A stretch of DNA of 38,975 nt from Planctomyces sp. (GCA_027483405.1 JAIXUU010000018.1:1-38975); one strand, 5' to 3'; numbered from the stretch's first letter, positions 3,372 through 24,338 are shown. Notes: generated by a model from the letters alone, not told the origin. Made by a program: numbers and translations.

Positions 3372-5858
3372 ATGGTTATGTCGCAAGCTCCCAGTTTCGA
3401 AACATCTGTCGCCAATTCACCAGCCATGAAACCAGCGGCTGGAGGGATCACGATCCGGCAGATCCTCTCACAATTGCGCAGTTCAATTCGCAGATACCTC
3501 TTCTGGCAAGGGTTTTTGGGAACTTTAGCACTGGTGGCTCTCTGGTTCTGGGGAAGTTTTCTGCTCGATGAATTTGTCTTTTCACTCACCCGCTTTGAAA
3601 TTCCTCGCTGGCTTCGTGCTCTACTGCTGGTGACCGCCCTCGGTGGCACAGCCTTGTTCGCTCTGTGGAAACTCGGGACAGCGATGGCCCGTCAGCTCAA
3701 TGAGCGGGCTCTGGCCCTGGTTCTCGAGCGACGCTTCCCTCAGTTGGACAGCCGGCTGATTCTGGCGGTTGAAGCCAATGCCGGGCAGGTACCTGCGGTT
3801 TCACCCATGCACGATGCGATGGTGGCCCGCACTCTTGAACGGGCGAATCAGGATGTGACCACACTCGATCTGGGCCAGGTTTTTAACCCCTCGCCATTTC
3901 GCCGGTCGAGCCTGCTCGCCTCGATTCTCTGGGTACCGATCGCACTTTTGGCTGTCATGAATTTCGGTGCCGTGGCTGCCTGGGCAAATGGGTATTTGAA
4001 GCTTTCCGAAACTTATCGTGATCGGCAAACGGAACTGATTCCTTATGTTCTGGCGCAGCCGGGAGAGCGAAAAGTTCTGTTCAAAAAGGGTGTTTATCGT
4101 CACCCGAAAGGTTCCGATCTGACATTGCAGATTGAGACCGCGGAAGGAAAACTTGCCCCACCCAGAGTTCGCCTCGATTATCGGCTCAATCAAGGTCGCG
4201 GCAGTGGCCGGACTTATCTGCAGGTCGACAGCACTGGCCAGTCATCACATACTTTCACATCATTGCTGGATGACACCAGCATCTGGTTGACGGGTGGAGA
4301 TTACACCACATTGTCACCCCTGCAAATTCAGGTTGTCGATCCGCCGATTGTCTCCGGTCTGTCGATTAACCTCAAATATCCTGCTTATACAGGATTGAAT
4401 ACAGGAGATGGCTTCACCTCGCTACCGGTGATCGGAACAGAAGCCGGTCTGCCACTGGAATCGACATTCGAGTTGCAGATTACAGCTCCGCAGCCACTGA
4501 GCGAAGTTCGCTGCGAACTGCAGGCGGGGCCTCTTCGCTATGAAGTTCTGGCCAGCCAACTGAATTCTCAGCCTCAAATCGAAATTCTCCCGGCCGCCAT
4601 TGCTGGCCAAAGCCGAAAACCGACTCGCTTGCCTGAAAACCTTGCAAAGGCTGCTGTGCGAGAAGGCGGGAAGACACTTGCCATCCCCTTCCGACTGCAT
4701 CACAAGGCCAGTGAACTGCTGGCGAAACAGGCTGCAGGCGAAACACTCGAACTGATTGAGAACGCGATCCCGCTCCCACCGGATACTCTTTTCCGGTTGT
4801 GGCTGGTCGATGCAGAAGGAATCGCCGCCACCGAGCCGGCCAAGCTGCTGCTCAAAGGGATTCCTGACGAAGCCCCTCAGGTGGAAACAGCCTTAAGGGG
4901 CATTGGCACATCGATTACGCGGCTGGCAAGAATTCCAGTCACTGGCGAAGTCAACGACGATTACGGCGTGGATCGCATCTGGTTTGAGTATTCAGTCGAT
5001 GCCGATACCACACTGAAAGAACAACCTCTGGGAGATTATCGCTCGAATCGCCAGAAACGAGTCCAGTTAGAACGATCCGCAGCGGAGCCTTATGTCCGTT
5101 TTGATGTTCTACCGCTCGACCTGGCAATCAAGCAGAAACTGACAGTTAATACTGTAGCCGCCGATGCCAATGACGTTGCTGATGTCGGGCCCAATGTCGG
5201 ACGAGGTCAGCGTTTTGTCTTTACGATTGTCTCTCCCGAAGAATTACTTTCGATCCTTTATGCCCGGGAAATCAACGAGCGTAAGCGATTCGAGCAACTG
5301 ATTTCTGAAGTTCAAAGACTCCGCGATGATCTGGTACGGCATCGCGACATGATTGCCGCCAGCCGGTCCGAACCACCTCCCGCCGACAAAAACGAATTGC
5401 TGCAATCGATTGCCGGTTGTGGAGAAAGATCTTTGTACGCCATCCGTCAGGCGGCTCAGTCAACCGACTCCGTACGGCAGACTTTCCGGGAAATCCGGGA
5501 GGAACTGGTCAACAACAGTGTCGACACACCCCAGATGCTGGATCGAATCGACCGCAAGATTGTCGATCCGCTCAGCCGGCTCATGGATCAGGATTTTCCC
5601 TCCATCGACGCCACCATCGGACTTTTCCGGCTGGCGAATGAACAGGGTTCCGACCCGACAGCCCCCGTCGAAGATGCAATTTTACAGATTCAGGGCTTGC
5701 TCGAAACATTGGATCAGGTTTTGCTGGAGATGAGAAAGCTCGAAACTTTTCATGAGGCACTCGAATTACTTAAGGCCATCATTGGCGAACAGGACGATCT
5801 GGCAGAAAAAACCAAACAGCGCCGAAAAGCCCAGGCACTGAAAGCCCTGGAAGACTAG
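3372..5858 (+). CDS. DUF4175-like three-TM protein with coiled-coil tail
   Basis: 828 residues. The start ATG at 3372 is followed by a second in-frame ATG two codons later, and no strong Shine-Dalgarno sequence is visible. Three hydrophobic segments lie at about 43-65, 81-101 and 178-205. A long beta-rich extracytoplasmic region (about 210-620) comes next, then a charged helical tail from about 636 (ILYAREINERKRFEQLISEV onward) that should form coiled coils. This is the layout of DUF4175-type proteins found beside vWA/Bat proteins. No enzymatic motif is visible. The gene is 44 nt after the vWA gene and 24 nt before the next, in the same direction, so it is likely part of one transcript. A structural or scaffold partner of the vWA proteins in the membrane is the likely role (inference from position). 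Confidence 0.75.
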   Translation: MVMSQAPSFETSVANSPAMKPAAGGITIRQILSQLRSSIRRYLFWQGFLGTLALVALWFWGSFLLDEFVFSLTRFEIPRWLRALLLVTALGGTALFALWKLGTAMARQLNERALALVLERRFPQLDSRLILAVEANAGQVPAVSPMHDAMVARTLERANQDVTTLDLGQVFNPSPFRRSSLLASILWVPIALLAVMNFGAVAAWANGYLKLSETYRDRQTELIPYVLAQPGERKVLFKKGVYRHPKGSDLTLQIETAEGKLAPPRVRLDYRLNQGRGSGRTYLQVDSTGQSSHTFTSLLDDTSIWLTGGDYTTLSPLQIQVVDPPIVSGLSINLKYPAYTGLNTGDGFTSLPVIGTEAGLPLESTFELQITAPQPLSEVRCELQAGPLRYEVLASQLNSQPQIEILPAAIAGQSRKPTRLPENLAKAAVREGGKTLAIPFRLHHKASELLAKQAAGETLELIENAIPLPPDTLFRLWLVDAEGIAATEPAKLLLKGIPDEAPQVETALRGIGTSITRLARIPVTGEVNDDYGVDRIWFEYSVDADTTLKEQPLGDYRSNRQKRVQLERSAAEPYVRFDVLPLDLAIKQKLTVNTVAADANDVADVGPNVGRGQRFVFTIVSPEELLSILYAREINERKRFEQLISEVQRLRDDLVRHRDMIAASRSEPPPADKNELLQSIAGCGERSLYAIRQAAQSTDSVRQTFREIREELVNNSVDTPQMLDRIDRKIVDPLSRLMDQDFPSIDATIGLFRLANEQGSDPTAPVEDAILQIQGLLETLDQVLLEMRKLETFHEALELLKAIIGEQDDLAEKTKQRRKAQALKALED

Positions 5859-5882: not shown

Positions 5883-7925
5883 ATGAATTCCATAACAGAC
5901 GATCAAACAGAAAACGTCTCTTCATTGTTCGCCGCCAAAAAAGCGTCCCTCGCGAAAAAAGCCTCTGTATGGGGTAGAAATCGGATCTTTATGCCCGCAC
6001 GTGATTCGCGAATTGTGGCTCTAGCTGTGTGGAGCCTGGCCATACTGGCGAACTTTTGGCCGTCACTGATTCTCCAAGGGCAGGAACCACCAGCCGTTCA
6101 GCCACAAACTTCCGCGGAACTGGCGACATCCCAAGATGCGTTGGCTGCCCGGTATCAGCGTTTTGAAAATACGCTGCAGCAGTTGGCAGAATACCTGCGA
6201 AAGACCGATCCGGCCCGGGCTGATTTGATTGTGCGGGCCATTGGGAAGAGTAAAGAAACCCGCGTCCCTGATCAGATGGAAGCTCTCGTTGAACTGCTCA
6301 AACAGGAGCGGCTCGGTGATGCCATTTCTCGACAGCAGGATCTCTCTGTGCAAATGGCTGCACTTTTAGAACTGCTTCAAAGCGAAGACCGCCGCGACGA
6401 AATCGAACGCGAACGGGCTCGCGTGCAGGATCTGATCAAAGACGTCAATAAGCTCATCGGCCAGCAACAGGATACTCGTTCTGCAACCGAACGAGGCGGC
6501 CCTCTGGGCGACATCGAAAAGCGGCAAGCCAAAATCGCCGAAGATGCCCGCAAACTGACTCAAAAAATCGATCAGCAGGATGCAGCCAAGCGATCATCGA
6601 GCCCATCGCAGAGAAAAGGCGACTCTTCCGAAGGCAGTGAAAAACCGTCGGAAGGGAGCGAATCCAAAGATGGCGATCCCTCCAAGCCTGATTCCGGGAA
6701 TGCTGATCCCAAGGAACCGATGAATGGATCCGAGGAAAAGAACAATTCGGAAGGCGAGCAAAGCCCATCATCCGGGAAGAGCGGCAAAGAAAAGTTACCC
6801 GATTCGAAAACGCCACCTGCCGGCAAAAATGACAAACCTTCGGAAAACGACGGCCAAGACCCCAAAGATCCTGCTTCTGAAAAACAGCCGGGGGAGTCTC
6901 CAGGCGATCCATCAAATGGTAAACCCTCTCAGGGGAAGCCGTCAGAAGCTAAACCATCCCAGGGAAAACCATCGCAAGGTAAGCCCTCTCAGGGTAAACC
7001 ATCTCAAGGCAAGCCCTCGGAAGGCCAGCCTTCTGAAAGTCAGCCTTCGGAATCAGGGGATTCAGGTCAGTCTTCTCCGTCAAAAGATGAGAATGGCAAA
7101 CAGCCTGAGAAAACACCCGGCCGTGACGAAGTCGAGCAATCGATTCGGGCCATGGATAAAGCAATCGAAGAACTCCGCAAAAAAAATGCTGGCGGCGCTT
7201 CGGATCAACAGGACAAGGCACTGACCGATCTGATCAAAGCCCGCGAAAAACTCGAAGAGATTTTGCGACAACTGCGCGAAGAAGAGCGTGAGCTCATGCT
7301 GGCGGCCCTCGAATCCCGCTTCCGGGAAATGCTGGCGCGGGAAATCGCCATTTACAACAGCACCATGGGGTTAGCATCTGTTCCTGAAAAACAGAGAACC
7401 GATCGTCATCGTTCACGGGCTCTTGAACTCTCCCGACAGCAGAATGAACTGGTGCTCGAAGCCTCCAAGGCCTTGACGCTCCTCCGCGAAGAAGGCTCTT
7501 CAATTGCCTTCCCGGAAACCGTTGAGCAAATTCAAGCGGATATGAAGACCATTTCTCAGCGACTCGAAAGAGCTGATGTCGCCACATTGACGCAACAAAT
7601 TGAAAAGGACGTGATTGAAGCTCTCGAAGAACTCGTCGATGCCTTAAGGCAGGAAATGGAAAAAATGAAAGACGAGAAACAGCAGCAACAACAGCAGCAG
7701 CAGCAACAGCAACAACAGAAGGCACTGGTCAATCAGCTGGCTGAACTGAAGCTGTTGCGTTCACTTCAGTACCGCGTGAATCGACGCACGAAACTCATTG
7801 GGCGTCTCGTGGATGGTGAACAAGCCATCGATAACGACATGATTGGTCAATTGCGAGAACTCGGGCTGCGGCAAGAGCAGGTTCGAAAAGCCACTTACGA
7901 TCTTGCCACAGGAAGGAATGAGTAA
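5883..7925 (+). CDS. Anchored low-complexity coiled-coil protein with KPSQG repeats and poly-Gln
   Basis: 680 residues, with a good Shine-Dalgarno sequence before ATG 5883. One hydrophobic segment at about 42-62 is a signal or anchor. Residues about 75-235 are charged and helical. A long disordered Ser/Lys/Glu/Pro region follows (about 235-410) and contains a five-residue KPSQG-type tandem repeat from residue 347. A second helical region (about 415-680) is broken by a run of 13 Gln (600-612). There is no enzyme motif. The build resembles TolA/TonB-like spacers: membrane anchor, extended linker, helical distal domain. It overlaps the next gene by one base (TAATG). A role in bridging the periplasm for the vWA operon is inference; proteins of this composition are common in planctomycete Bat operons but uncharacterised. 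Confidence 0.8.
   Translation: MNSITDDQTENVSSLFAAKKASLAKKASVWGRNRIFMPARDSRIVALAVWSLAILANFWPSLILQGQEPPAVQPQTSAELATSQDALAARYQRFENTLQQLAEYLRKTDPARADLIVRAIGKSKETRVPDQMEALVELLKQERLGDAISRQQDLSVQMAALLELLQSEDRRDEIERERARVQDLIKDVNKLIGQQQDTRSATERGGPLGDIEKRQAKIAEDARKLTQKIDQQDAAKRSSSPSQRKGDSSEGSEKPSEGSESKDGDPSKPDSGNADPKEPMNGSEEKNNSEGEQSPSSGKSGKEKLPDSKTPPAGKNDKPSENDGQDPKDPASEKQPGESPGDPSNGKPSQGKPSEAKPSQGKPSQGKPSQGKPSQGKPSEGQPSESQPSESGDSGQSSPSKDENGKQPEKTPGRDEVEQSIRAMDKAIEELRKKNAGGASDQQDKALTDLIKAREKLEEILRQLREEERELMLAALESRFREMLAREIAIYNSTMGLASVPEKQRTDRHRSRALELSRQQNELVLEASKALTLLREEGSSIAFPETVEQIQADMKTISQRLERADVATLTQQIEKDVIEALEELVDALRQEMEKMKDEKQQQQQQQQQQQQQKALVNQLAELKLLRSLQYRVNRRTKLIGRLVDGEQAIDNDMIGQLRELGLRQEQVRKATYDLATGRNE
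6921..7055 (+). repeat. 15-nt coding tandem repeat (KPSQG/KPSEG/QPSES)
   Basis: About nine copies of a 15-base unit encode KPSQG and its variants KPSEA, KPSEG and QPSES. Copies use different synonymous codons (aaa/aag, cca/ccc, tcc/tcg/tct, cag/caa, gga/ggt/ggc), so the array is not a fresh slippage product and seems to be kept at the protein level. Confidence 0.85.
7680..7718 (+). repeat. Poly-glutamine tract (13 codons)
   Basis: Thirteen consecutive Gln codons, mixed CAG and CAA, lie inside a predicted helical region of the repeat protein. Mixing of the two codons lowers the tendency to slip, which suggests the tract is stable. Confidence 0.85.
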
Positions 7926-9088
7926 TGTCGTCATTCACTTTCACGGATTTTTTCACGCGAACTTTGCCAGTTGGAAACGCGACACAGCTCCAGGAACATC
8001 GATCTCCGTTTTGGCTGGTGAGTCTGCTGGGCATCTGCTTCTGGATTCTGGCAGGTTTAATGGCTTGCCCATCGACCTTTGCGCAGGAGTCATCTGTTGA
8101 AGTTTTTGCTCCCCCCTCCGCAGCGATCGTCGAGACCAAACTCAGGCAAAGTCTCCTGAATCTGAAAAATCCTCCTGCCGATGTGGAGGCCATCATCGCA
8201 CCTCTCCAGGAAGCGACAGACGTCGATTCTCGGCTGCTAAAAGTGGTGCAGATCGCTGCCAGTGCAGATCCCGAAATTGGCCGGCTTGTCGCCCAGTGCA
8301 ATCAGCCCACACTAATCCCAGACCCTGCCCAGTTGTCGGCCACTCAGTCATCCGCTGCCCAATGGTCAGCCATGATGGGCCGCAGTGATCTTACGCCTTT
8401 TCTCAAATCCAATCTTGCCTTGTATTACGGAAGATATCTTGTTGAGCGGCAGTTGTATGATGAAGCACAGCTGGAACTGGCGACAGCCGATGCTCGCGAA
8501 GTTGTCTCGCCCGCGACTCTGTTTTTTTTCCGAGCCGTTGTGGCCCAGGCTTTACTTGATGTCGAGAACTGCCGTTTAGCTCTGAATCAGCTGCTCGAAA
8601 AGACTCAGGATTCTCCATTACGTTATCGCTCGACAGCCGAGTTGATCAAAGCCGATCTCGATGCTTTCGAAGCAAAGTCGCTAGGAGAAGTCGCTCGATT
8701 AATGGCCGATTCCCGCCGTCGGCTGGATCTGGGCCGCGCGGGTGAAAAAGTGCAGGGAGTTCAGGAAAAGATCATCACGAACCTCGATGAACTCATCAAA
8801 AAGATCGAGCAGCAGATGGGTGGAGGCGGCGGTGGTGGTGGCGGTGAAGGTGGAAACTCCAACGAAAGTGGGGGTGCTGCTGAAGACAGCTCTGTCAAAG
8901 GCGCAACAGCTCCCGGTGAAAGCGAGAAAAAGAAGTTTTCCAAAGACGGAGCCTGGGGGAATCTTCCCGAAAAGCAGCAGGCTGAAGCCCGTAATATCAT
9001 CAGTCGGAGCTTTCCTCCGAATTACGGCCGAGCGATCGATGCCTACTCGAAAAAACTGGCCAATCGCCCGGCGAAACCATCCCCCTGA
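7925..9088 (+). CDS. Secreted/anchored helical protein with Gly-run and conserved GAWGNLPEKQQ tail
   Basis: 387 residues. ATG 7925 overlaps the preceding TAA by one base. Hydrophobic residues about 35-53 followed by a cleavage-like ...CPSTFAQES form a signal peptide with a long N-region. The middle is helical and somewhat TPR-like (LALYYGRYLVERQLYDEAQL). A run of nine Gly separates it from a short C-terminal block reading GAWGNLPEKQQ then a helix with SFPPNYGRAIDAYSKKLA. I recall this type of tail from many planctomycete secreted proteins of unknown function, ending proteins near vWA operons. It is the last gene of the Bat-like run; 115 nt without overlap separate it from the next gene. No enzymatic role is visible. 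Confidence 0.75.
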   Translation: MSSFTFTDFFTRTLPVGNATQLQEHRSPFWLVSLLGICFWILAGLMACPSTFAQESSVEVFAPPSAAIVETKLRQSLLNLKNPPADVEAIIAPLQEATDVDSRLLKVVQIAASADPEIGRLVAQCNQPTLIPDPAQLSATQSSAAQWSAMMGRSDLTPFLKSNLALYYGRYLVERQLYDEAQLELATADAREVVSPATLFFFRAVVAQALLDVENCRLALNQLLEKTQDSPLRYRSTAELIKADLDAFEAKSLGEVARLMADSRRRLDLGRAGEKVQGVQEKIITNLDELIKKIEQQMGGGGGGGGGEGGNSNESGGAAEDSSVKGATAPGESEKKKFSKDGAWGNLPEKQQAEARNIISRSFPPNYGRAIDAYSKKLANRPAKPSP

Positions 9089-9203: not shown

Positions 9204-10445
9204 ATGCGAGGGATTTCGCTTGTCGTTCAATCAGCTACCAGATTTTCCAAGGTCACTAATGGATTATTTCTGGCAATCTGGTCAGTGACACCCTCACTTC
9301 TGATCGCGGCTGAACTCCCTGTGGCCGTTGAACTCCTGTCAGGAACAGTCACGAATGCCGAGCTTGTGCAGCTCAACGAGACCATTGCAAAACTCAAGCA
9401 GCCAGAAGGCGTTATTGAGGTTCCCCTCTCTCAAGTCCTGACTTTGAAGCAGGCCACCGCTTCAAAACCACCGCGTACTGTTGAAGCTGAAAAAGCCCTG
9501 ACAGATGCCGCGCTTCGCGATGGCAGTCGCCTCAAACTCAGCAGCCTGAGCCTGCAGGAGAGTCGTCTACTGGGGAAGCATCCGGTCTGGGGCGAGATGG
9601 AGTTTGGGCGAAATGAAGTCACTTCCCTCAGGCTGGCTGCCACCGATGCGAAAGTCGATGCCGCCTGGAAAGAACTTTCGAGCCGAGACTTAACGCGTGA
9701 TCTTGTCGTTCTGCGGAAAGGTGATGTTCTTGATCATCTGGAAGGGACTGTTATTGGCATTGGTGAGAAAACCATTCAGTTCTTGCTCGATGGGGATGAA
9801 GTCCCTGTTAAAAGGGAACGTGTTTTTGGAATCGTCCTGGCAAAGGGTGAAGTGCAAAGCCCATCCCTCATTCGATGTGATCTGGACAACAATGAAACGA
9901 TCCTCGTTGATCAGGTGAGTCTGGCCGACGGAAAGTGGATCCTCTCTCGTCAGGGTCAGAACTACGAAGCGGATCTGGAATACGGCCCGATTTCCATCGA
10001 TTACAGCTCCGGGAAATTGCTTTATCTCTCAGAGCAGGAGCCTCGATCGGCCAAGTACACGCCTTTTTTCGGCTACACCTGGGAGTACCGGAAAGATCGA
10101 AGTTTCGAAGGCAGGCCATTGGCTGTCGGTCAGCGAACTTATCGCAGAGGCCTGGCGATTCACTCGAAGTCAGAAATGACATGGCAATTGGGTGGAGAAT
10201 TTCGCCGCTTTCAAACCGTCATGGGTTACGACCCGGAAATTTCTACTGCCAGCACCGCACTGGTACGTATTCTGGGTGATGGCAAAGAGTTGCTGAAGGT
10301 TGATCTGGTTCGTGGAAACCCGCCACATTCAGTTGATCTGGATATCACAGACATCTCTCAATTGACTATCGTAGTCGACTTTGGAACAGATGAAGTGGAT
10401 ATCGGTGACCGCATTCATTTCGGTAATGCGAAGGTCGTAAAATAA
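9204..10445 (+). CDS. NPCBM/NEW2 domain secreted protein
   Basis: 413 residues, with GGAG nine bases before ATG 9204. An N-terminal hydrophobic segment (about 20-35, ending ...LLIAAELPV) is a signal peptide. The middle (about 40-260) is beta-rich with heptad-poor helices and is not recognised. From about residue 270 there is an NPCBM/NEW2-type beta-sandwich, with the typical sequence of RTYRRGLAIHSKSEMTWQL, a FQTVMGYDPE strand and a final DRIHFGNAKVV strand. NPCBM domains were named from glycosidases and are thought to bind carbohydrate. No catalytic domain accompanies it here. It overlaps the following protease gene as TAATG, so the binding protein and the protease are made together; a link between sugar binding and proteolysis is inference. 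Confidence 0.8.
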   Translation: MRGISLVVQSATRFSKVTNGLFLAIWSVTPSLLIAAELPVAVELLSGTVTNAELVQLNETIAKLKQPEGVIEVPLSQVLTLKQATASKPPRTVEAEKALTDAALRDGSRLKLSSLSLQESRLLGKHPVWGEMEFGRNEVTSLRLAATDAKVDAAWKELSSRDLTRDLVVLRKGDVLDHLEGTVIGIGEKTIQFLLDGDEVPVKRERVFGIVLAKGEVQSPSLIRCDLDNNETILVDQVSLADGKWILSRQGQNYEADLEYGPISIDYSSGKLLYLSEQEPRSAKYTPFFGYTWEYRKDRSFEGRPLAVGQRTYRRGLAIHSKSEMTWQLGGEFRRFQTVMGYDPEISTASTALVRILGDGKELLKVDLVRGNPPHSVDLDITDISQLTIVVDFGTDEVDIGDRIHFGNAKVVK

Positions 10446-12337
10446 TGCAGTGCGCAATTCGATTCGATTGTTTTCGTTTGATGATGGTCATTGGTCTGAT
10501 GATCCCGGCTTATCCACAACTGCTCACCCGAGCCTATGCAGATCAGATCGTCCCCGGGAATACATCCCTCTCGAACGAAACTCAGGATGCCGGGCAGTCC
10601 CAGCCCGAGAAGATTCCCGGTATCGTGAAAGAAGCTGAGCAGAAGCGGATTCAAATGATCCGCGACGTCTCACCTGCAGTTGTCGCCATCTTTTCCAGCT
10701 CAGGCGATGGAGGTGGATCGGGCGTTTTGATTTCCCCCGACGGATTCGCTTTGTCGAATTTCCACGTGACCAGTGGTGCTGGCAACTTCATGAAGTGCGG
10801 ACTCAACGACGGAAAACTCTACGATGCCGTCATCGTAGGAATCGACCCGACAGGCGATGTCGCACTCATTCAACTGCAAGGACGCCAGGATTTTCCCTTT
10901 GCCCGGATGGGAAACAGTGATCTGCTGAAACCTGGGGATGCCGTTTTCGCGATGGGAAACCCGTTTCTTCTGGCCACGGATTTCACTCCCACCATCACCG
11001 CCGGGATTGTGAGCGGCCTGCATCGATACCAATATCCTGCGGGAACATTTTTAGAGTACGCCGACTGTATACAGACCGATGCTTCCATCAACCCTGGTAA
11101 CTCAGGGGGGCCACTGTTCAATCTGCAGGGTGAACTGATCGGGATTAACGGCCGGGGATCATTCGAGAAGCGTGGCCGTGTGAATTCAGGGGCCGGATAC
11201 GCGATTTCGATCAATCAGATCCGGTACTTTCTGGGCCACTTAAAGTCGGGACGAATTGTCGATCACGCCACTTTGGGTGCCACAGTGCGCTCGGGATCAT
11301 CACGAGAAGTCCTTGTCGATCAGGTGCTGGAAGGTTCGAGTGCCTGGAACGCCGGTCTTCGAGAAGGTGATGAAATTGTCACCTTTGCGGGACGCCCGAT
11401 GGGAAGTGTCAACCAGTTCAAAAATGTACTGGGGATTTTTCCGAAAGGTTGGTCACTCCCCATGGTCTATCGCCGGGATGGCCAGAAGCAGGAGATTCTG
11501 GTCGAACTGGCCGCTTTGCATACCGATACCGAACTGATGGAATTTGCCTCAGGCGGTGCAGCTCGTCCCGCAGAAAAACCTGGTCAGCCCAAACCCGGTC
11601 AACCCAAACCAGGAGAAAAGCCGACTCCTCAAGAGTCTCCCCCGGAAGGACACTCAGAGAAGCCGGCGGAAAAGCTTTCTCCGGAGCTCAAAAAACTCTT
11701 CCAATCGAAAGCCGGATTTACCAACTATCACTTCAATCAACGGGAACAGAAACGCCTCCTCGGGCATTTGGCGAGTGTCTCTGGTTGGCGGGGTGCCACT
11801 GGTTTGTGGAAGTTCGCAGGGGACGACGCCAAAGGTACGAATCTTTCGCTGATTCTTTCGCCAGATGGTGCTGGCATGCAGTGGGGTGAAACTCCTTTTC
11901 TTCAGCCCGCTGCAGGAGCCAACTGGATTGATGAACCACCATCGAGCGGAGGATTTCTAGCCGCTATGCTGCACTGGAAATGGCTGCTGACCGAAGGCCC
12001 GGAGGCATTTTCTGATGTCTACTATCTGGGAACACAACCCCTGGATGGCCAATTGGGTGATGCTCTTAACACCCCACTTTACGATGCTCTGGTTCTCTCG
12101 AAGACTGGGGCTACTATGACGGTCTTCTTCCGTGAGGATGGAGTGATTGCCGGCTTTGATTTTAAAGCCTCCCGCGACCAGCCCACCTGCAATGTCAGAT
12201 TTTCCTCATGGGGGACACTCGGCGGCCACCCCTTTCCGCAAGTGCTCAAAGTCTCATCTTCTGGTCGTTCTTTCGGTGAATTCACGCTGAAAAACTTCGA
12301 GCAGAAATCCTCCACTTCCAGCGAGGCCACTCGATGA
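10445..12337 (+). CDS. Deg/HtrA-type serine protease with PDZ and extra C-terminal domain
   Basis: 630 residues starting in the TAATG overlap. A signal peptide (hydrophobic to about residue 22, with YADQ near 31-34) is followed by a trypsin-like domain. The catalytic triad is complete: His107 in SNFHVT, Asp138 in GDVALIQL, Ser220 in NPGNSGGP. A PDZ domain covers about 277-357 (GLREGDEIVTFAGRPMG). A Pro/Lys linker with KPGQPKPGQPKPG (about 375-412) leads to an unrecognised domain (413-630), containing GATGLWKFAGDD and a beta-rich end. Length exceeds the usual 450-500 residues of DegP/DegQ because of this extra domain, and only one PDZ is present. Role: periplasmic protein quality control or regulated cleavage. 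It overlaps the next gene as ATGA. It is the only one of the three neighbouring paralogues expected to cleave peptides. Confidence 0.9.
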   Translation: MQCAIRFDCFRLMMVIGLMIPAYPQLLTRAYADQIVPGNTSLSNETQDAGQSQPEKIPGIVKEAEQKRIQMIRDVSPAVVAIFSSSGDGGGSGVLISPDGFALSNFHVTSGAGNFMKCGLNDGKLYDAVIVGIDPTGDVALIQLQGRQDFPFARMGNSDLLKPGDAVFAMGNPFLLATDFTPTITAGIVSGLHRYQYPAGTFLEYADCIQTDASINPGNSGGPLFNLQGELIGINGRGSFEKRGRVNSGAGYAISINQIRYFLGHLKSGRIVDHATLGATVRSGSSREVLVDQVLEGSSAWNAGLREGDEIVTFAGRPMGSVNQFKNVLGIFPKGWSLPMVYRRDGQKQEILVELAALHTDTELMEFASGGAARPAEKPGQPKPGQPKPGEKPTPQESPPEGHSEKPAEKLSPELKKLFQSKAGFTNYHFNQREQKRLLGHLASVSGWRGATGLWKFAGDDAKGTNLSLILSPDGAGMQWGETPFLQPAAGANWIDEPPSSGGFLAAMLHWKWLLTEGPEAFSDVYYLGTQPLDGQLGDALNTPLYDALVLSKTGATMTVFFREDGVIAGFDFKASRDQPTCNVRFSSWGTLGGHPFPQVLKVSSSGRSFGEFTLKNFEQKSSTSSEATR

Positions 12338-13467
12338 AACATCACGCCTTGCACCTCCGAAAAATGCTCCAAACAAGCGGGTGGATCTCCAAAAGTAACA
12401 TCCTTAGACCAGGCCTGGCCTGGCTGATGAGTATCTGTTTCTTACTTTGCGGCTCACAGCTTCTGCCAGCTGCAGATGACGAAATGATTACCGAAGTTCA
12501 GCCGAAACTGGTCAAGATCTTCGGGGCCGGAGGGTTGAGAAACCTGTACTCATACAACACGGGGTTTTTGATCTCTTCGGAAGGGCACATTGCCACGATC
12601 TGGAATCATGTTCTCGACCAGAACACCGTCACCGTTATCCTGCATGATGGTCGCCGTTACGAAGGCAAGGTCCTCGGGGCAGAACCAGGTCTGGATCTGG
12701 CGATCATCAAAATTGATGAAACGCAGCTGGAACATTTCGAGATTGGTGACCCCTCGTCAGGATCGACATTTCCTCTGGCTGCTCCCGGAACTCGCATTGT
12801 CGCCTTCAGCAATATGTTCAAAGTCGCCACTGGTGATGAACCTGTCTCGGTCATTCAAGGAGTGATAGCGGCCCGGACAAAGCTGCCCACGCGTCGCGGA
12901 GCTTACGAATCTTCTTTCCCGGGTGAAGTCTATGTGATTGATGCGATCACCAATAACCCCGGGGCCGGTGGAGGAATTGTGACCACCGTCGATGGTCGAT
13001 TGTTAGGCATGATCGGGAAAGAGGTCAAAAATGCCGACCTGAATACCTGGGTCAACTATGCGATTCCCATTTCGCATTTGCAGCAGGCCATGACTGAGAT
13101 CATGACGGGGAACTTCCGCAGTTCGAAAGAGACGGAAGACAAGGAAAAAACTGCCGGGCAAGTCCCACTGTTTCACTCGACTGACTTCGGGATCGTCATG
13201 CTCCCCAATGTCGTCCCCAGAACACCAGCCTATGTGGATCGAATTCTTCCTGGATCCGCCGCCGAGGTCGCTGGTCTCAAACCCAATGATCTGATTCTGT
13301 TTGTCGGGGATGAACTCATTCAATCCTGCGGCGAATTTCTGGATCAGATCGGTCGGCTCGAAAGTGGCGGCAAAGTGAAACTGATTGTTCGCCGGGAGAA
13401 TGCGCTCATCACTACGGAACTCCCTATCCCTCGGAAATCGAGACCTCCTGCAAAACCACTCAGGTAG
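12334..13467 (+). CDS. HtrA-like PDZ protein lacking the catalytic serine
   Basis: 377 residues, ATGA-coupled to the active protease. A hydrophobic segment at about 28-43 is a signal peptide. The trypsin-like fold keeps His92 (ATIWNHVLD) and Asp121 (GLDLAIIKI), but the serine loop reads NNPGAGGG instead of NPGNSGGP, placing Gly212 where the nucleophile should be. A PDZ domain lies at about 280-360 (DRILPGSAAEVAGLKPNDLI). Without Ser it should not act as a serine protease. Pseudoproteases of this family usually bind partners or regulate the active enzyme; here tight coupling to an active homologue suggests a heteromeric complex (inference). Confidence 0.85.
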   Translation: MKHHALHLRKMLQTSGWISKSNILRPGLAWLMSICFLLCGSQLLPAADDEMITEVQPKLVKIFGAGGLRNLYSYNTGFLISSEGHIATIWNHVLDQNTVTVILHDGRRYEGKVLGAEPGLDLAIIKIDETQLEHFEIGDPSSGSTFPLAAPGTRIVAFSNMFKVATGDEPVSVIQGVIAARTKLPTRRGAYESSFPGEVYVIDAITNNPGAGGGIVTTVDGRLLGMIGKEVKNADLNTWVNYAIPISHLQQAMTEIMTGNFRSSKETEDKEKTAGQVPLFHSTDFGIVMLPNVVPRTPAYVDRILPGSAAEVAGLKPNDLILFVGDELIQSCGEFLDQIGRLESGGKVKLIVRRENALITTELPIPRKSRPPAKPLR

Positions 13468-13482
13468 ATCCATCGTTCCTTA

Positions 13483-13508
13483 GCGGGGTATACCTCGGAA
13501 GTACCCGC
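13483..13508. other. Bulged hairpin in the gap between two HtrA-like genes
   Basis: GCGGGGTA and TACCCGC can pair over seven base pairs with one bulged G and an 11-base loop. No T-run follows, so it does not look like a Rho-independent terminator. It could be an mRNA processing or stability element between the coupled pair and the third HtrA-like gene. Confidence 0.3.
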
Positions 13509-13553
13509 GAAGACTGATGCTGTGACCTGTCAATTGAATGTCGTGAGACCGTT

Positions 13554-15617
13554 ATGAATCTGCTGCTTCCATGGCCTCTCCAGGTTTTTCGAGCTAGCTT
13601 TGCAGCCTTGGGTTTAGCCATCGTAACCAGTTTTTCTATGGCACTGGCCCAGACTGAGACGGTTGTCGTTGCACAAAGTGCAGATGCACCCACTCAGAAA
13701 GAACTGGAACTGGCCGAGGAGAGAGTCTTTCGGCTGGCGACTTCACTGATTGCACCTTCGATCGTACGGATTGAAACCGTCGGTGGATTGGATGAAGTGG
13801 ATGGCATTCTGGCGGTCAATGGCTCGACCACGGGCGTGATCGTGGGAAGTGACGGTTGGATTGTCACAAGTGCTTTTAATTTCATTTCGAAACCCACATC
13901 AATTCTGATCACACTTCCCGATGGCCGGAAGTTTCCCGCAAAGCTGACTGCCACCGATACGCTGAGGATGCTCGCCTTATTGAAAATTGATGCCAGCGAG
14001 CTCCCCACACCCATTATTGCACCACCAGAATCTGTAGAAGTTGGTGCCTGGGCTCTGGCTCTGGGACGCTCGTTATCTCCAGATCAACCCAGTGTTTCGA
14101 TAGGAGTAATCAGTGCCAAAGAGCGTGTCTGGGGAAAGGCGATTCAGACTGACGCCAAAGTCTCTCCTGTAAACTATGGCGGCCCTCTGATCGATCTGGA
14201 AGGTCGTATGACGGGCCTGCTGGTACCTCTCTCACCTCAATCACAGACTGTTTCCGCAGGCTTCGAGTGGTACGATTCAGGAATCGGCTTTGCCATCCCC
14301 GCAGCGGATGTCATGCAGGCCTTACCCCGGATGCAGGCGGGCGAAAATTTGCGGCCAGGACTGATGGGCATCTCGTTCACCGGAAACGATCTTTCTGGTG
14401 ATGCCCCTGTGGTGGAGAGAGTCCGCTTTCAATCACCGGCGGCGGCCGCAGGAATTCTGGTCAATGATGTGATTGTTGCGGCTGATAACATTCCCATTGC
14501 CCGGCTGGGAAATCTCAAGCATGTCCTGGGACGCAAATACGCCGGCGACCAACTCCAGCTCAAAATCCTGCGTAAGAAGGAACCACTGGAAGTGACGATT
14601 CCGCTGGTGGCCGAGATTCCTCCCTGGGATGAGGCGACGGCAGGCTTTCTGCTCAAACGAAACTCATTATCGACTGATGCCGAATCCGAAAAAGAGAAAC
14701 TCATCGTCAGAGCGGTCTTTCCGAATAGCCCGGCCATGTCAGGTGGTCTCCTGGCTGGTGACGAGATTCTCGCCATCGATGGGGAGTCTGTCGCGACTGC
14801 CGATTCACTGCGGAAACTTCTGGATCGACGCAAACCTGGAGACCAGCCTCGGTTCACCCTCCGCCGCCAGAATCAAAATGGTCAGGCAGAAGAAGTCCAG
14901 GTTTCCATCACGTTGGCAGGTCAACCATTTCCTGTCCCTGGAGAACTGCCTGCGATTACGAACGATAAGCCTCTCGCTGAAGGCGAGAATGCTCCCAAAG
15001 CCAAAGGCCGTTTTCTTGAGAAGCTGGCAGTCAATGGCCGCGAGTATTGGGGTTATGCTCCTGCCAGTGCTGCTGGCAAACAGCCGCATGGATTGATTGT
15101 CTGGCTGCATCCCTCAGGAAACTCAATGGAGGCGGCTGTGCTCAAAAGCTTGAAGGTGGAATGTGACCGCCGCCAGATCATGCTGGTGGGCCCCAAAGCT
15201 GAGGGTAAGGGCTGGACTCCCGAAGATGTCGATTTTGTCAAAGCACTGGTGGAACATCTGCGAAGTGAATACCCCATCGACCCCGGCCGGATTGTGGTGA
15301 TGGGACAGACAGATTCGACGAAGTTGGCGTCTTTTCTGGTCTTCAAAGATCCCTCGATCTATCGCGGTGCCATTCTGGTCGGTGGTCCCACAGCCGGTCA
15401 GCCACCCGAGCGGGATCCTGCCGCTCGGCTGCATCTGAACCTCACCATTCCCGAGGGAAGCCGTACTGCCGATGGTCTCAAAAAGCTGGTCGAATCTCTT
15501 AAGAAGCAAAAATCAGTGATCTCAACCATTTTTGTCTCTGGCGACGGAAGTGAATTCCCGGATGGAGCCTGGGCCGAGCAAATTGGCATCTGGATCGATC
15601 AGATCGACCGTTTTTAA
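13554..15617 (+). CDS. HtrA-like pseudoprotease with two PDZ domains and esterase-like C-terminus
   Basis: 687 residues from ATG 13554. The signal peptide runs to about residue 32 (...SMALAQTE). The trypsin-like domain has lost the triad: Phe108 replaces His (IVTSAFNF), Met139 replaces Asp (RMLALLKID) and Tyr208 replaces Ser (SPVNYGGPL). The fold residues around each are kept. Two PDZ-like domains follow (about 265-350 and 360-452; GLLAGDEILAIDGESV in the second). The last part (485-687) looks like a PHB-depolymerase-type alpha/beta hydrolase (HGLIVWLHPSGNS, then RIVVMGQTDSTK), but the nucleophile elbow G-x-S-x-G is GQTDS, so Thr586 sits at the Ser position. Both enzymatic domains therefore appear inactive and a binding or scaffold role is most likely. 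Confidence 0.85.
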   Translation: MNLLLPWPLQVFRASFAALGLAIVTSFSMALAQTETVVVAQSADAPTQKELELAEERVFRLATSLIAPSIVRIETVGGLDEVDGILAVNGSTTGVIVGSDGWIVTSAFNFISKPTSILITLPDGRKFPAKLTATDTLRMLALLKIDASELPTPIIAPPESVEVGAWALALGRSLSPDQPSVSIGVISAKERVWGKAIQTDAKVSPVNYGGPLIDLEGRMTGLLVPLSPQSQTVSAGFEWYDSGIGFAIPAADVMQALPRMQAGENLRPGLMGISFTGNDLSGDAPVVERVRFQSPAAAAGILVNDVIVAADNIPIARLGNLKHVLGRKYAGDQLQLKILRKKEPLEVTIPLVAEIPPWDEATAGFLLKRNSLSTDAESEKEKLIVRAVFPNSPAMSGGLLAGDEILAIDGESVATADSLRKLLDRRKPGDQPRFTLRRQNQNGQAEEVQVSITLAGQPFPVPGELPAITNDKPLAEGENAPKAKGRFLEKLAVNGREYWGYAPASAAGKQPHGLIVWLHPSGNSMEAAVLKSLKVECDRRQIMLVGPKAEGKGWTPEDVDFVKALVEHLRSEYPIDPGRIVVMGQTDSTKLASFLVFKDPSIYRGAILVGGPTAGQPPERDPAARLHLNLTIPEGSRTADGLKKLVESLKKQKSVISTIFVSGDGSEFPDGAWAEQIGIWIDQIDRF

Positions 15618-17411: not shown

Positions 17412-18692
17412 TTAGAAAGCTTGCTGTCCCTGCTGGCCATCGACTCGGTTACGGGCGTTGGTATTCAGACGTTGAATCACCGATGACCCTGTATCCAGTC
17501 CATCGCGACCGCCTTCGTAGAAGAATCGTGAAAGTTCGATAATGGCGGGCCCCATCAGGAAGAGATAGACCGCCGGCATCAGGCAGAGCACAGTGGGGAA
17601 GAGCAGGCGGAATGTGGCCCGATTTCCCTTCTCTTCCGCGCGCTGTTTGAGACTTTCCCGCATCGTTTCAGCATATTCAGCCAGGGCACCACTGACACTT
17701 GTCCCCATACGGGAAGTCTGCATCAACAGCGACGTAAACGAGTGAACTTCCGGCACATCAACGCGCTGGCTGAAATTTTTGAGCGCGACGTCCATCGAGC
17801 CAATTCTCGACTGTTCGTTGATGATCTTCAGTTCCTGCTCCAGGGCCGGATAGGCACCTTTCATCTCGACGCGAATGCGTTCCAGCGATGCAGGCACCGT
17901 CATCCCCTGACTGACACACATATTCAACATGTCGAGAAGATCGGGCATGGCCTTTTCGATCTCGTTGCGGCGGTCGCGAGCCCGATTGCGAACCATCAGT
18001 CGCGGGAGCGACCAGCCCAGGATTGGCATGAGAACGATGGCACCAATGACTATCGGCTCGAATCGCGGTGGTACGAATAACAGTAGTACGCCGCAGAAAA
18101 TCATGGGAAGAATCATTGCCAGATAACGAACAGCAGAAAAGTTCATCACGGCCCGCGGCGAATAATAACCCGCAGCATAAAGATCCGAGCGGATGGAATC
18201 CTGGCGGCTCCCCGCTTCCGGCAAGAGCGAGGCTAGAGCGGGCGTTAATGCGCCAAATGTCATTTCGCCTTGATTGAGTTCATCAGGCAAGTCTTCTGCG
18301 AGCACTCGAGGCAAACCCCGGCTACGATCACGATAAGTGCTCGATGAATCGACAAAGAGTTTTTCATTTTCCCAGCGGGCAGGGCCACCGGTATTCGCTT
18401 TGCCCGCAGGAACATAAGCGGTCTTGAGAATACTGAGACCTTCGGTTGCTTGCGATACGTCTTCAGTCACTGGCTTCGCGTCGAGTTGAACTGTTGACGG
18501 TGTTGTGATGGCCGCTTCTGGCGCTGCGGAATTGGCTTTCGCCAGCGACCACTGGGACTGATCTGCTTCCGAGTTCTCTTTTACAACTCTGCTGCGGGCA
18601 CTTAACCAGCGCCGGGCCAGACGGTAGACGAGGATCAGACTGATGATCCCCATGGCCAAGAACATCAGATTTGTAAAAGTTAAAGGAAACAT
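17412..18692 (-). CDS. tadC: TadC, type II secretion F-family inner-membrane protein
   Basis: 426 residues, last gene of the minus-strand Tad operon. ATG at 18692 is preceded by AAGGA at a suitable distance. An N-terminal TM segment (about 7-25) leads to a long cytoplasmic region of about 130 residues that is poorly conserved. Two hydrophobic stretches flank the GspF-like helical domain (YLAMILPMIFCGVLLLF at about 190-207, and a neighbouring IVIGAIVLMPILGWSL), and a final pair ends near residue 395 (LLFPTVLCLMPAVYLFLMG). The FLxTV/MDVALKNFSQRV region matches GspF/TadC. Together with TadB it forms the inner-membrane platform on which the CpaF ATPase acts. The 3' end faces the oxidoreductase gene across 69 nt. 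Confidence 0.85.
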   Translation of the reverse strand: MFPLTFTNLMFLAMGIISLILVYRLARRWLSARSRVVKENSEADQSQWSLAKANSAAPEAAITTPSTVQLDAKPVTEDVSQATEGLSILKTAYVPAGKANTGGPARWENEKLFVDSSSTYRDRSRGLPRVLAEDLPDELNQGEMTFGALTPALASLLPEAGSRQDSIRSDLYAAGYYSPRAVMNFSAVRYLAMILPMIFCGVLLLFVPPRFEPIVIGAIVLMPILGWSLPRLMVRNRARDRRNEIEKAMPDLLDMLNMCVSQGMTVPASLERIRVEMKGAYPALEQELKIINEQSRIGSMDVALKNFSQRVDVPEVHSFTSLLMQTSRMGTSVSGALAEYAETMRESLKQRAEEKGNRATFRLLFPTVLCLMPAVYLFLMGPAIIELSRFFYEGGRDGLDTGSSVIQRLNTNARNRVDGQQGQQAF

Positions 18693-18813
18693 GTCTTCTA
18701 TTCCTTAGCCTGCTCAGAAAAATGCTCTCCGGCAGATTCGGTCAACTCTGAAAAACTTCGATGTAATCAATAACTGATACCGCTCAACCGCAATCGACAA
18801 TCCATCAGAGTTC

Positions 18814-19671
18814 TTATGTCCGCTGGCTGTCCCGCAAAATCCTTAACACCCAGATCGTGCCGATCATGGTCAATGTAAAGGCAATAATTGTTCCGTTACG
18901 ACCCCATGAGCTTCCCATCAACTTGGAGAAGTAATCCGGGTCTCGTAGCGTAAAGAAGATGAGCACACCTGGCGGCAATACAACCATCAGTAGAGCTGTC
19001 GCACGGCTGGCTGCCGTCATCGCACGCAACCGGCCCAGATACTGAAGTCGATCACGGATTGTTTTCGAAAGCTGCTCGAGCACCCAGACCAGATCACCAC
19101 CTGTCTGCTGGTGAACGCCGAGCGTCATACAAAACAGTCGTAAAGTCATAAGCCCCGTACGATCCGGCAGGTCGGCGACAGCATCCCTCATCGGCATCCC
19201 CATCTGCATACGCCGCACACACAATTGCAACTCATCACCTAGAGGGGAGGGCGTATCAGCAGCCACGAGTTGCAGACACTGCTCCACACTCCGGCCTGTC
19301 GTGGCGGCGCGCGCCAATTCTTCCAACATCGCTGGCAACTGGCCCAGAATCTGGTTTTGCCGACTCGATCGAACATACATCAGAAAGAACACAGGGAGCA
19401 AAAAACCTACAACGGCCGCCAGTGCTGTTGTCAGAAAGTTTTCCTGAAGGACAAAGATCAATCCTCCCACTGTAATACCACCCAGGAGGCAGAGCATCAG
19501 CACGATCCCGGGCGAAATCCCAAGCCCGGATTGAAGCATCAACTGATCAAACCAGCGATTGAGTCGCTCACCAGAGCCACTGGCCTGTGGCTGGGCGAAC
19601 TCTTCACGCGGCTTCAAAATCGATGAGAAATCGACCGGTCGATCAGCGTTTGTAATGGTTGAAGAAGCCAT
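18814..19671 (-). CDS. tadB: TadB, type II secretion F-family inner-membrane protein
   Basis: 285 residues. Two hydrophobic stretches near residues 58-105 (LMLCLLGGITVGGLIFVL, LTTALAAVVGFLLPVFFLMYV) precede a GspF-like helical domain (QLPAMLEELARAATTGRSV, then QTGGDLVWVLEQLSKTIRDR), and two TM segments close the protein (ATALLMVVLPPGVLIFF, IIAFTLTMIGTIWVL). This is the classical TadB layout. Length fits the family (about 280-320). It lies between cpaF and tadC, as in standard tad loci. Gaps are 65 nt from cpaF and 121 nt to tadC, longer than in many tad operons but in the same direction. No strong Shine-Dalgarno sequence is seen. Confidence 0.88.
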   Translation of the reverse strand: MASSTITNADRPVDFSSILKPREEFAQPQASGSGERLNRWFDQLMLQSGLGISPGIVLMLCLLGGITVGGLIFVLQENFLTTALAAVVGFLLPVFFLMYVRSSRQNQILGQLPAMLEELARAATTGRSVEQCLQLVAADTPSPLGDELQLCVRRMQMGMPMRDAVADLPDRTGLMTLRLFCMTLGVHQQTGGDLVWVLEQLSKTIRDRLQYLGRLRAMTAASRATALLMVVLPPGVLIFFTLRDPDYFSKLMGSSWGRNGTIIAFTLTMIGTIWVLRILRDSQRT

Positions 19672-19736
19672 AGAACCACAACCTTGAAATCAATGACAGC
19701 ACATTTCGAGGCATATAAAAAACGCTGTTACTCAGC

Positions 19737-21086
19737 TTATGCCGAGTAGGGTGCATCATTCGTCTGACTTCCCAGTTCGCGGGCACTGAAGTTCATATGG
19801 GGAACTTCGTAGCCGCGAGCGGCCAGTTTCTTGAGCATCTCTGGTTCATGGCCTGTCGCGTAGAAAGCTCCGCGAGCGCGACCGTCATTGCCGATACCTG
19901 TCATCCGATAGACATAGATATCATTGAGTTCATAGATACCGTCATGATACCCGGTGAGTTCGCTGATACGCATGACTTTGCGTTCACCAGTCCCTAATCG
20001 CGTAATATGCACGAGAATCTGAATCGCGTTCGCGATGTATTGCCGGGCAACGCTGTGCGGCAAATCGACACCCGCTAAAGCGACCATCAGCTCCATACGA
20101 TCCAGAGCATCGCGTGTATCGTTGGCGTGAATTGTACTCATCGAACCATCGTGGCCAGTGTTCATAGCCTGGAGCATATCGAGCACTTCACCGCCACGAG
20201 CTTCGCCCACGATGATCCGATCAGGACGCATACGCAGGCTGTTTTTCAGGAGATCACGCTGAGTGATTTCCCCACGACCTTCAATGTTTGGCGGGCGAGT
20301 TTCGAGCGAAACGACATCTTTCTGCTGCAATTGAAGTTCCGCTGTCTGCTCGATCGTCACCACACGTTCGGTTTCCGGGATAAAACGTGAAATGTTATTG
20401 AGCATGGTGGTTTTACCTGCACCCGTACCACCACTCACCACAATGTTCAGACGCCCGCGGACGGCAGCGATCAGAAAGTCAGCCATTTCCTGTGTTAATG
20501 TGTGCATACGCACCATGTCTTCAAAGACCACTGCACGCGAACGAAACCGTCGAATTGAAACCGTAGGGCCACGCAAGGCCAGGGGAGGGATCACGGCATT
20601 CAGTCGAGAACCATCCGGAAGTTTCGCATCGACCATCGGAGAGACTTCGTCAATTCGACGACCTGTGCGCCCCACCATGCGATGGATAAACTGCATGAGA
20701 TGTTCGTTGTCGGCGAACTGAATATCAGTCCGTTCGATGAGCCCGTTACGCTCTACGAACACCGTATCAGCACCGTTGATCAGCACGTCGGTCACATCGG
20801 TATCGGACATCAGCGGTTCAATCGGCCCGAAACCATAGATCTCATCCATGATGGCAGTGACCATGATCTCACGGTCATCGGCTGGAATATTCGCCTGCTG
20901 CTGCTGACAAAGATGGTTTGCCAAAGCTCGTAACTGGGCGCGCAGATCAGCTTCCGGCAGATCACTGGCCTTGGAAAGGTCGATGGCATCGATCATCTGG
21001 CGGTGAATGCGGGTCTTCAGGATTTCAAATTCCTGACGACGATCTTGCATCCGATTTCCAGAGGAGTTCTGCAGGTCAGCGATCAT
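19737..21086 (-). CDS. cpaF: CpaF/TadA secretion ATPase
   Basis: 449 residues from ATG 21086; a longer GTG start at 21128 would add 14 residues but only the ATG has a good ribosome site (GAGGG eight bases before). The hexameric ATPase motifs are present: Walker [10 protein letters not shown] (219-227), Walker B region RIIVGEARG (290-298) and the His box STIHAN (317-322). The Asp box reads [10 protein letters not shown], with Gln where Asp is usual. It powers pilus assembly or secretion by driving TadB/TadC. The N-terminal 90 residues are charged and typical of CpaF. Confidence in the family is high; whether it powers an adhesive pilus or another secretion function cannot be told from sequence. 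Confidence 0.95.
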
Positions 21087-21093
21087 GGAAAAA

Positions 21094-21098
21094 CCCTC
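21094..21098 (-). promoter_or_regulatory. Shine-Dalgarno site deciding the cpaF start
   Basis: On the minus strand GAGGG lies seven to eight bases before ATG 21086. It supports this ATG over the upstream GTG at 21128, which has no comparable site. Confidence 0.6.
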
Positions 21099-21161
21099 GA
21101 CAATGGTCGCATTTGATACTGGATGCACATCGAAAAACTATGAGCAGCACGAATGAGGAAC

Positions 21162-22664: not shown

Positions 22665-22717
22665 CCTGGGTGCTCATGGCATGATGTGCATCAAGGCAGC
22701 CGGTTGTCCTCGATGAA

Positions 22718-23722
22718 CTACTGCCGGAAATTCAACAAATTGCGAACGGCCGTGGGGGCCATACTTTTCAGTGGTGCGGGAGCATTGTTTGCACTGGGAG
22801 CATTCGGAGCAGGTGCCGGATCCTGTGCGGCTGGAACAGAGTTATCGCCTCGAGGAAGTACCTGTTGACCATTATCGCGTGCGGGGGGAGGAACTTCAGT
22901 AACGTCGAGCAGCCTGCCTTGCTTGTTGAAATGCTGGACACGTCGCGCCTGACCTCGGTAGATCTCAGTCAGGAGTGGGAGCTGCGGCGGAGCAGGTGGT
23001 TCAAGACCGAGGATCTCATTGAGTGTCACACGTTCCGAGTTTGAGAGTGCTAATCCCCCGCTTCCCGCACCATTCGGATTGAAAATCAATGTTAATGCCC
23101 CTTTGGCCTCAGCAAGAGTAATGATGTTGGCCTGGGCCTGGGTCAGTTCAAGTGTGACTCGGTTCACACCGCGTTCAACTCGGCTCTGTGTGAAACTGCG
23201 ATTGATGGCAATGACTTTGACCCCTTCGAAAAGTCGCATTGTCACGCCACCTTGCAAATCGGCATTCGACTGGGATTCGACAGTGAAGAGCACATCGACG
23301 TAGTTGCCGGGCTTGATCATGCCATCCACAATGCCGACCATTTCCGCCACCGAAATGGAGACCGCCCGCATACCGTCGGCAACTCTCAGATCCGGGAGTT
23401 CACCGGGTTGATAGAGTTGGCCTGCGCGAATTGGTTCGGCGGCTCGAATTTTGGTCCGTGCCACTCGTCCGACGATCACACGATTGGCCAGCAGCATGTC
23501 GGGCTTCAATTGACTGTTCTGCACGGGCCCCAACCCGATATGACCTTCGGTGATGAGAGTTCCCGGTTCAATATCGGAGATCGCCATGGGCACATTGCGG
23601 GTGGCAATGACGGGCTTTTTCTCCTCACGTGCCAGGAGTGATTTTCCGATGTAGGCGACCACGAGAAGTCCCACGACACCGAACATTACCAGCGTCAGAA
23701 GAGCAGGGGTCAGTCGACGCAC
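22718..23722 (-). CDS. cpaB: CpaB/RcpC, Flp pilus assembly SAF-domain protein
   Basis: 334 residues from GTG 23722, with GGAG nine bases upstream. A TM segment at about 7-25 is followed by a SAF domain (IATRNVPMAISDIEPGTLIT) and a RcpC-like beta domain (VSISVAEMVGIVDGMIKPG, YVDVLFTVE). The C-terminal 50 residues are rich in Ala, Pro and Asn and likely disordered. CpaB binds cell wall or stabilises the secretin in other Tad systems. Here the expected secretin gene does not follow; tadG does. Length is close to the family's usual 280-330. Confidence 0.9.
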   Translation of the reverse strand: MRRLTPALLTLVMFGVVGLLVVAYIGKSLLAREEKKPVIATRNVPMAISDIEPGTLITEGHIGLGPVQNSQLKPDMLLANRVIVGRVARTKIRAAEPIRAGQLYQPGELPDLRVADGMRAVSISVAEMVGIVDGMIKPGNYVDVLFTVESQSNADLQGGVTMRLFEGVKVIAINRSFTQSRVERGVNRVTLELTQAQANIITLAEAKGALTLIFNPNGAGSGGLALSNSERVTLNEILGLEPPAPPQLPLLTEIYRGQARRVQHFNKQGRLLDVTEVPPPARDNGQQVLPRGDNSVPAAQDPAPAPNAPSANNAPAPLKSMAPTAVRNLLNFRQ

Positions 23723-24326: not shown

Positions 24327-24338
24327 TTGCCCGGAATC

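Follow-up and report, generated by a model that had tools for sequence, protein, structure and literature searches.

One putatively live HtrA-like protease and two conserved HtrA-fold pseudoproteases encoded side by side in Planctomycetota

Background

Why would a planctomycete keep, beside one HtrA-like protease with its catalytic triad intact, two HtrA-like proteins that have lost the catalytic serine? The question is raised by three consecutive genes, termed here P1, P2 and P3 and together the trio, on a single contig of Planctomyces sp. (GCA_027483405.1 JAIXUU010000018.1:1-38975); the whole of this stretch, 38,975 nt starting inside a BatA gene, is referred to below as the window. Comparison of orthologues strongly supports P2 and P3 as conserved HtrA-fold pseudoproteases, presumably inactive, and both are read here, with moderate confidence, as non-catalytic, PDZ-bearing partners of P1 in a putative exported complex.

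The three genes and their active sites

P1, P2 and P3 are consecutive open reading frames (ORFs) on the + strand, of 630, 377 and 687 residues. The features listed were defined from the ORFs and Pfam matches, together with predicted models for P2 and P3 and, for P3, a profile match.

10445-12337, +: P1, with a trypsin domain (residues 91-234), one PDZ domain (about 275-355) and a C-terminal domain (about 405-630)
12334-13467, +: P2, with a trypsin domain (residues 76-226) and one PDZ domain (299-363)
13554-15617, +: P3, with a trypsin domain (residues 93-222), PDZ1 (269-351), PDZ2 (384-438) and a C-terminal domain of predicted alpha/beta-hydrolase fold (about 484-687)
10763-10765, 10856-10858 and 11102-11104, +: His107, Asp138 and Ser220 of P1, an intact catalytic triad
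12607-12609, 12694-12696 and 12967-12969, +: His92, Asp121 and Gly212 (for Ser) of P2, a pseudo-active site
13875-13877, 13965-13967, 13968-13970 and 14175-14177, +: Phe108, Arg138, Met139 and Tyr208 (for Ser) of P3, a pseudo-active site
15003-15614, +: esterase-like C-terminal domain of P3, with Thr586 and without a conserved Ser nucleophile

An earlier note on this DNA had described three tandem HtrA-like proteins at 10445-15617, with triads H/D/S, H/D/G and F/M/Y, an ATGA coupling of the first two and the fold kept in the third, and each of these readings held. The ATG of P2 overlaps the stop of P1 as ATGA at 12334-12337, and 86 bases separate the P2 stop from the P3 start, although P2 and P3 overlap in some relatives. 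All three proteins match Pfam Trypsin_2 (PF13365) far over its cut-off, with 108, 65.8 and 81.5 bits for P1, P2 and P3, and PDZ-type Pfam matches were obtained in each; that of P1 was to PF00595 (24.1 bits, cut-off 23.2), with PF13180 and PF17820 slightly under their own cut-offs. Because each protein has an N-terminal hydrophobic, signal-peptide-like stretch, all three are probably exported. A promoter and terminator scan gave no signals clearly over those of shuffled sequences.

P1 has the trypsin fold, the His-Asp-Ser triad and the GNSGG motif of an HtrA protein. No NCBIfam model reached its cut-off with P1, P2 or P3, and P1 scored 223.9 bits with the DegP/HtrA subfamily model TIGR02037, the cut-off of which is 416.2; P1 is HtrA-like and lies outside the curated subfamily. 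Its C-terminal domain (about 220 residues, window 11657-12334) is conserved in the family, at Gly424, Asn427, Phe430, Asn431, Gly529 and other positions, and a sequence-based fold search with this domain returned no PDB match at an expectation value (E) below 0.1.

In P2 the motif NPGAGGG stands where NPGNSGG is expected, and in P3 the corresponding motif is SPVNYGG. The His position of P3 shifts by one, to F108 or N109, in a gapped HMMER alignment to DegQ; it was placed at Phe108 because the ungapped match to P1 favours that residue, and the loss of His is independent of this ambiguity because the P3 domain has no conserved His anywhere. This genome encodes 16 Trypsin_2 proteins, and Ser is kept in the 13 others and lost only in P2 and P3 (for L314-L316, which were poorly aligned by the tool, His and Ser were read from the sequence by eye); the losses are therefore special to these two. 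Elsewhere in the genome, a Trypsin_2 protein at L313:846-2429 (- strand) was found to have GMSGAA in place of GNSGGP, an unusual loop, with His, Asp and Ser retained.

The fold of the two altered copies was assessed with AlphaFold2. The P2 model (predicted local distance difference test, pLDDT, 86) matched DegP/DegQ/DegS in Foldseek at E 1e-21; its whole-chain superposition on DegP was poor (TM ~0.45, root-mean-square deviation, rmsd, >10), which a difference in the relative placement of its two domains might explain. The P3 model (pLDDT 87) matched L. pneumophila DegQ in VIA with a Z of 28.1 and an rmsd of 7.9 over 366 residues. Pfam matches and models together indicate that the HtrA fold is kept in both proteins.

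The fold of the C-terminal domain of P3 was assigned from sequence profiles and the predicted order of strands and helices, and the domain is absent from the VIA match list, the rows of which cover residues 46-453. The best profile match was LC-Est1C (E 3.4e-14), followed by other esterases; Pfam alpha/beta-hydrolase families match some members of this domain and none matches the window sequence alone. At position 586, in the GxSxG elbow, 68 sequences have G 22, A 14, T 8, D 6, E 6 and S 6 times. On this evidence P3 seems to combine two enzyme folds, neither of which retains its nucleophile.

Conservation of the losses

Orthologues were extracted and aligned from 120 genomes in 58 genera of the window's family, which gave about 70 to 76 sequences per gene. 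With few exceptions, a genome of reasonable completeness has all three genes; completeness is below 90% in every genome that lacks a strong P2 or P3 match, and one genome that is 93% complete has no strong P1 match. The triad comparison across relatives that the earlier note had proposed showed the losses to be conserved. In ungapped rows, P1 retains His in 67/67, Asp in 68/68 and Ser in 70/70 sequences. The Ser position of P2 is Ala in 44, Gly in 31 and Glu in one, and Ser in 0/76, with His present in 68/76 and Asp in 64/76. The Ser position of P3 is Tyr in all 74 orthologues, with Phe108 in 70/74, Met at the Asp position in 55/74 and Arg or Lys at position 138 in 71/74; judged by these counts, the pseudo-active-site pocket of P3 (Phe108, Arg/Lys138, Tyr208) is highly constrained. 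The PDZ-loop glycines are likewise kept, Gly286 of P2 in every sequence and Gly272 of P3 in all but one.

A second, named set was assembled by a profile scan of GTDB contigs with P3 (Planctomycetaceae, Schlesneria, Gimesia, Thalassoglobus, Pirellulales and others); it partly overlaps the family set and its counts are not additive. P3 has Tyr in 80/80 of these sequences, P2 never has Ser and P1 has H-D-S. A single-sequence scan of the same contigs with P2 returned no relatives, whereas the P3 profile scan found them.

Neutral decay of duplicate proteases, which the earlier note had set against a conserved role, would account for the residue losses, and the Ser position of P2, which across all sets spans A/G/P/Q/Y, is that of a site free to vary once lost. 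The ratio of nonsynonymous to synonymous substitution rates (dN/dS), calculated for the trypsin domains of three congeners, was 0.03-0.04 for P2, 0.00-0.01 for P3 and 0.00-0.01 for P1, and these values, the open frames, the invariant Tyr and the co-retention of the genes across the phylum exclude decay in practice, leaving it virtually no probability. By the same ratios, purifying selection on both dead domains is strong, and the dead copies very probably have a real function.

The earlier note had also allowed that other residues might take the triad roles, and this was not borne out. No His is conserved in at least 85% of P3 trypsin domains, which have no conserved His or Cys, and none of the P2 or P3 orthologues has Ser, Thr or Cys where the nucleophile would be. 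Residue 211 of P2 was considered as a substitute nucleophile and rejected as not conserved, being Ser in just 15/76 sequences and Ala in 58/76.

Constraint on the P3 site, with Tyr208 invariant, Arg/Lys138 nearly so and Phe108 in most sequences, would also fit a repurposing of P2 and P3 for another chemistry or ligand unrelated to proteolysis, of which MamO, a protein that binds metal ions, is a known case (PMC4794232). A MamO-type di-His metal site in P3 finds no support, there being no conserved His, and the NCBIfam MamO model (NF040961, cut-off 800) gave 61.7 bits for P1, 30.6 for P2 and 22.5 for P3, so that none belongs to that family. Repurposing of this kind is considered very unlikely.

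Distribution across the phylum and gene fusions

A sample of 294 genomes of the phylum was searched, with E <1e-70 taken as a strong match for P3 and E <1e-45 for P2. Strong P3 matches came from 17 genomes of the window's family and from 30 belonging to other families. Of these, all 17 family genomes and 29 of the 30 others also gave a strong P2 match, the next P2 score being 1e-34. P2 and P3 occur together in 46 of the 294 genomes, P3 alone in one, where it lies close to a contig end, and P2 alone in none. Among these genomes 17 family codes are represented, the majority of which belong to classes other than that of the window. At the loci retrieved from these genomes the triad of P1 is H-D-S, no P2 has Ser, and all 30 strict P3 orthologues from other families have Tyr; distant P2 proteins are mostly without His as well.

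Outside the family, P1 stood beside P2/P3 or was fused with them at every locus inspected where the contig allowed. Four genomes, from three families, encode P1 and P2 as one continuous ORF that contains both domains, one natural fusion being L286:5737-8715 (- strand). Because of this constant company and the P1-P2 fusion, a joint function of the trio is inferred.

History of the three copies

Of the checks suggested in the earlier note, alignment and trees covered all three trypsin domains and structure prediction covered P2 and P3; they upheld the HtrA fold but not the stepwise loss from P1 through P2 to P3 that the note had proposed. Trypsin-domain trees separated P1, P2 and P3 into three well-supported clades, and several families outside the window's class are represented in each; P2 is therefore not an intermediate toward P3, and steps of loss were seen among P3 relatives. 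On the evidence of these trees the three had most likely separated by the time of the ancestor that these lineages share. A quick tree joined P1 with P2, a grouping that a careful tree did not resolve, and a single tandem duplication is a possible origin of the trio.

In several more distant P3 relatives Phe replaces His while Asp is kept, and the Ser position is occupied by Ser (F-D-S; L331/L346 and L335/L345), Val (F-D-V; L290, L330, L332 and L334) or Thr (F-D-T; L341 and L342), the state of P3 itself being written F-x-Y. In most cases these relatives adjoin a live P1 relative. L290 branches below P3 proper in the tree, and if the intermediate-state relatives do so, His would have been lost first in the P3 lineage.

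Further families also have divergent tandem sets in which one live HtrA is accompanied by two dead ones (L334, L345, L346, L347, L349, L351 and L352), and no MoxR operon genes lie within the stretches that cover them. More widely, divergent clusters in which a live HtrA-like gene is joined by one or two dead ones, away from the MoxR/Bat genes, were noted at L331/L346, L335/L345, L290, L330/L347, L334, L341, L342, L343/L349, L338/L351 and L340/L352.

Gene neighbourhood

The genes upstream of the trio in the window are as follows.

2-694, +: BatA-like protein, C-terminal part, at the contig edge
640-3327, +: 895-residue protein, conserved block before the trio
3372-5858, +: 828-residue protein, conserved block before the trio
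5883-7925, +: 680-residue protein, conserved block before the trio
7925-9088, +: 387-residue protein, conserved block before the trio
9204-10445, +: NPCBM-domain protein, a conserved neighbour directly upstream of P1, with a 1-base overlap

The four proteins between BatA and the NPCBM-domain protein matched no Pfam family over its cut-off, and their genes precede the trio in this order at many loci of the family, as they do in other families. In a complete congener (L291), DUF58 and MoxR genes precede BatA, so that the full order reads MoxR - DUF58 - BatA - 895 aa - 828 aa - 680 aa - 387 aa - NPCBM - P1 - P2 - P3, with an HSP90 gene further upstream of the MoxR block. Two loci of other families have the same order or nearly so, with MoxR AAA, DUF58 and BatA upstream, and one genome has a rearranged operon in which MoxR and DUF58 separate the NPCBM gene from P1. 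As far as gene order indicates, the trio usually ends a MoxR-DUF58-BatA operon.

This long conserved neighbourhood, the conservation of the PDZ domains of P2 and P3, and the esterase-fold domain of P3, which without a conserved nucleophile looks like a binding module, are what would be expected if P2 and P3 served the MoxR/Bat complex on their own, as non-catalytic PDZ scaffolds or chaperones that hold exported clients, with P1 an unbound neighbour. P1-P2 fusions in three families speak against such independence, as do the repeated occurrence of mixed live-and-dead HtrA tandems away from the MoxR operon and the finding that, outside the family, P2 and P3 were not found without a nearby P1 where contigs allow; a free scaffold or chaperone role is thus unlikely.

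Downstream, window 17412-25049 (- strand) holds a Tad/Flp pilus-like cluster, which adjoins the trio in only some relatives and comprises two platform-like membrane proteins, a T2SSE ATPase, a TadE/G-like protein, RcpC/CpaB and an A24 prepilin peptidase. Window 26145-37318 (+ strand) holds three large ORFs of 1368, 1789 and 529 residues, the first and third without a Pfam match.

Proposed function

Under the favoured reading of P2 and P3 as partners of P1, P1 would be the only protease of the trio, and P2 and P3 would bind P1, its substrates or both through their trypsin-fold and PDZ surfaces. They might regulate P1, recruit for it or complete its oligomer, much as MamO is required for the activity of MamE even though MamO's own triad is not, and their task might lie in the quality control or assembly of the envelope proteins on which the MoxR/Bat membrane system acts. 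A regulatory or recruiting role of the dead copies is favoured because MamE/MamO is the nearest tested case. The earlier note had likewise suggested that the pseudoproteases are regulatory or scaffold partners of the active copy, and co-occurrence, gene order and the P1-P2 fusions lend support to that suggestion.

Several points weigh against this reading. The binding of P1, P2 and P3 to one another, the inactivity of P2 and P3 and the exported location are all inferred from sequence. The trio genes are unlinked in a few genera, three genomes having them scattered over the genome with all three retained, and a P3-P1 fusion was never seen among the loci examined. Many P2 proteins retain His and Asp, which could have another use; the MoxR/Bat link may be one of expression only, and the divergent tandem sets elsewhere sit outside the MoxR/Bat operon.

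A more specific arrangement can be put forward tentatively. HtrA proteases work as trimers, and because of this and the recurring count of one live and two dead copies, the Planctomycetota HtrA trimer might be an obligate 1:1:1 heterotrimer with a single active site per unit, a proposal that is possible and on balance doubtful. The dead subunits would then supply substrate-binding PDZ domains and allosteric control, and the recurrence of one-live-two-dead sets, among strict orthologues and divergent sets alike, would reflect a fixed stoichiometry.

Relation to known systems

In the MamE/MamO system of magnetotactic bacteria the presence of MamO, and not its own triad, is needed for MamE-dependent proteolysis (PMC4794232), and, as in the trio, a live HtrA stands beside a dead relative in one gene cluster. 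MamO differs from P3 at the site itself: Thr replaces Ser and a di-His metal site is present, whereas P3 has Tyr, Phe and no conserved His; the trio differs further in having two dead partners, in its occurrence in planctomycetes and in its usual position at a MoxR/Bat operon. With DegP/DegQ/DegS the trio shares the fold and the protease-PDZ layout, P1 having the full GNSGG and His-Asp motifs, and the P2 and P3 models match these and other HtrAs first. Unlike them, the trio falls under the NCBIfam subfamily and equivalog cut-offs, P2 and P3 have lost the nucleophile, and P1 and P3 have extra C-terminal domains. The plant chloroplast proteins Deg5 and Deg8 are likewise two different HtrA paralogues that work in one complex, as proposed for the trio, but both are regarded as active.

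As in the MoxR-DUF58-BatA (Bacteroides aerotolerance) operons, genes for MoxR AAA_3, DUF58 and the BatA N-terminal domain stand in order upstream of the trio; unlike in the known operons, the block continues through conserved genes, including the NPCBM gene, to three HtrA-like genes. PDZ proteins are numerous in planctomycetes (PMC6411480). In the open-access literature neither a MoxR/Bat block running into an HtrA-like trio nor an account of the trio was found, most subscription papers lying outside the search, and the main text of a genome-wide transposon (essential-gene) paper on Planctopirus limnophila does not mention the trio genes (PMC10632474). HtrA-fold pseudoproteases were already known; what appears to be new is the planctomycete trio of one live and two dead copies.

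Conclusions

Bacterial pseudoproteases have rarely been documented, MamO being the clearest case in the literature searched. The trio is notable for its spread over 17 coded families, the invariant Tyr in place of the catalytic Ser, the extant intermediate states of loss, the natural fusions and a link to the MoxR/Bat membrane system, which is itself poorly understood. Should P2 and P3 prove to form a complex with P1, the trio would provide a direct test of how a dead subunit controls a live HtrA.

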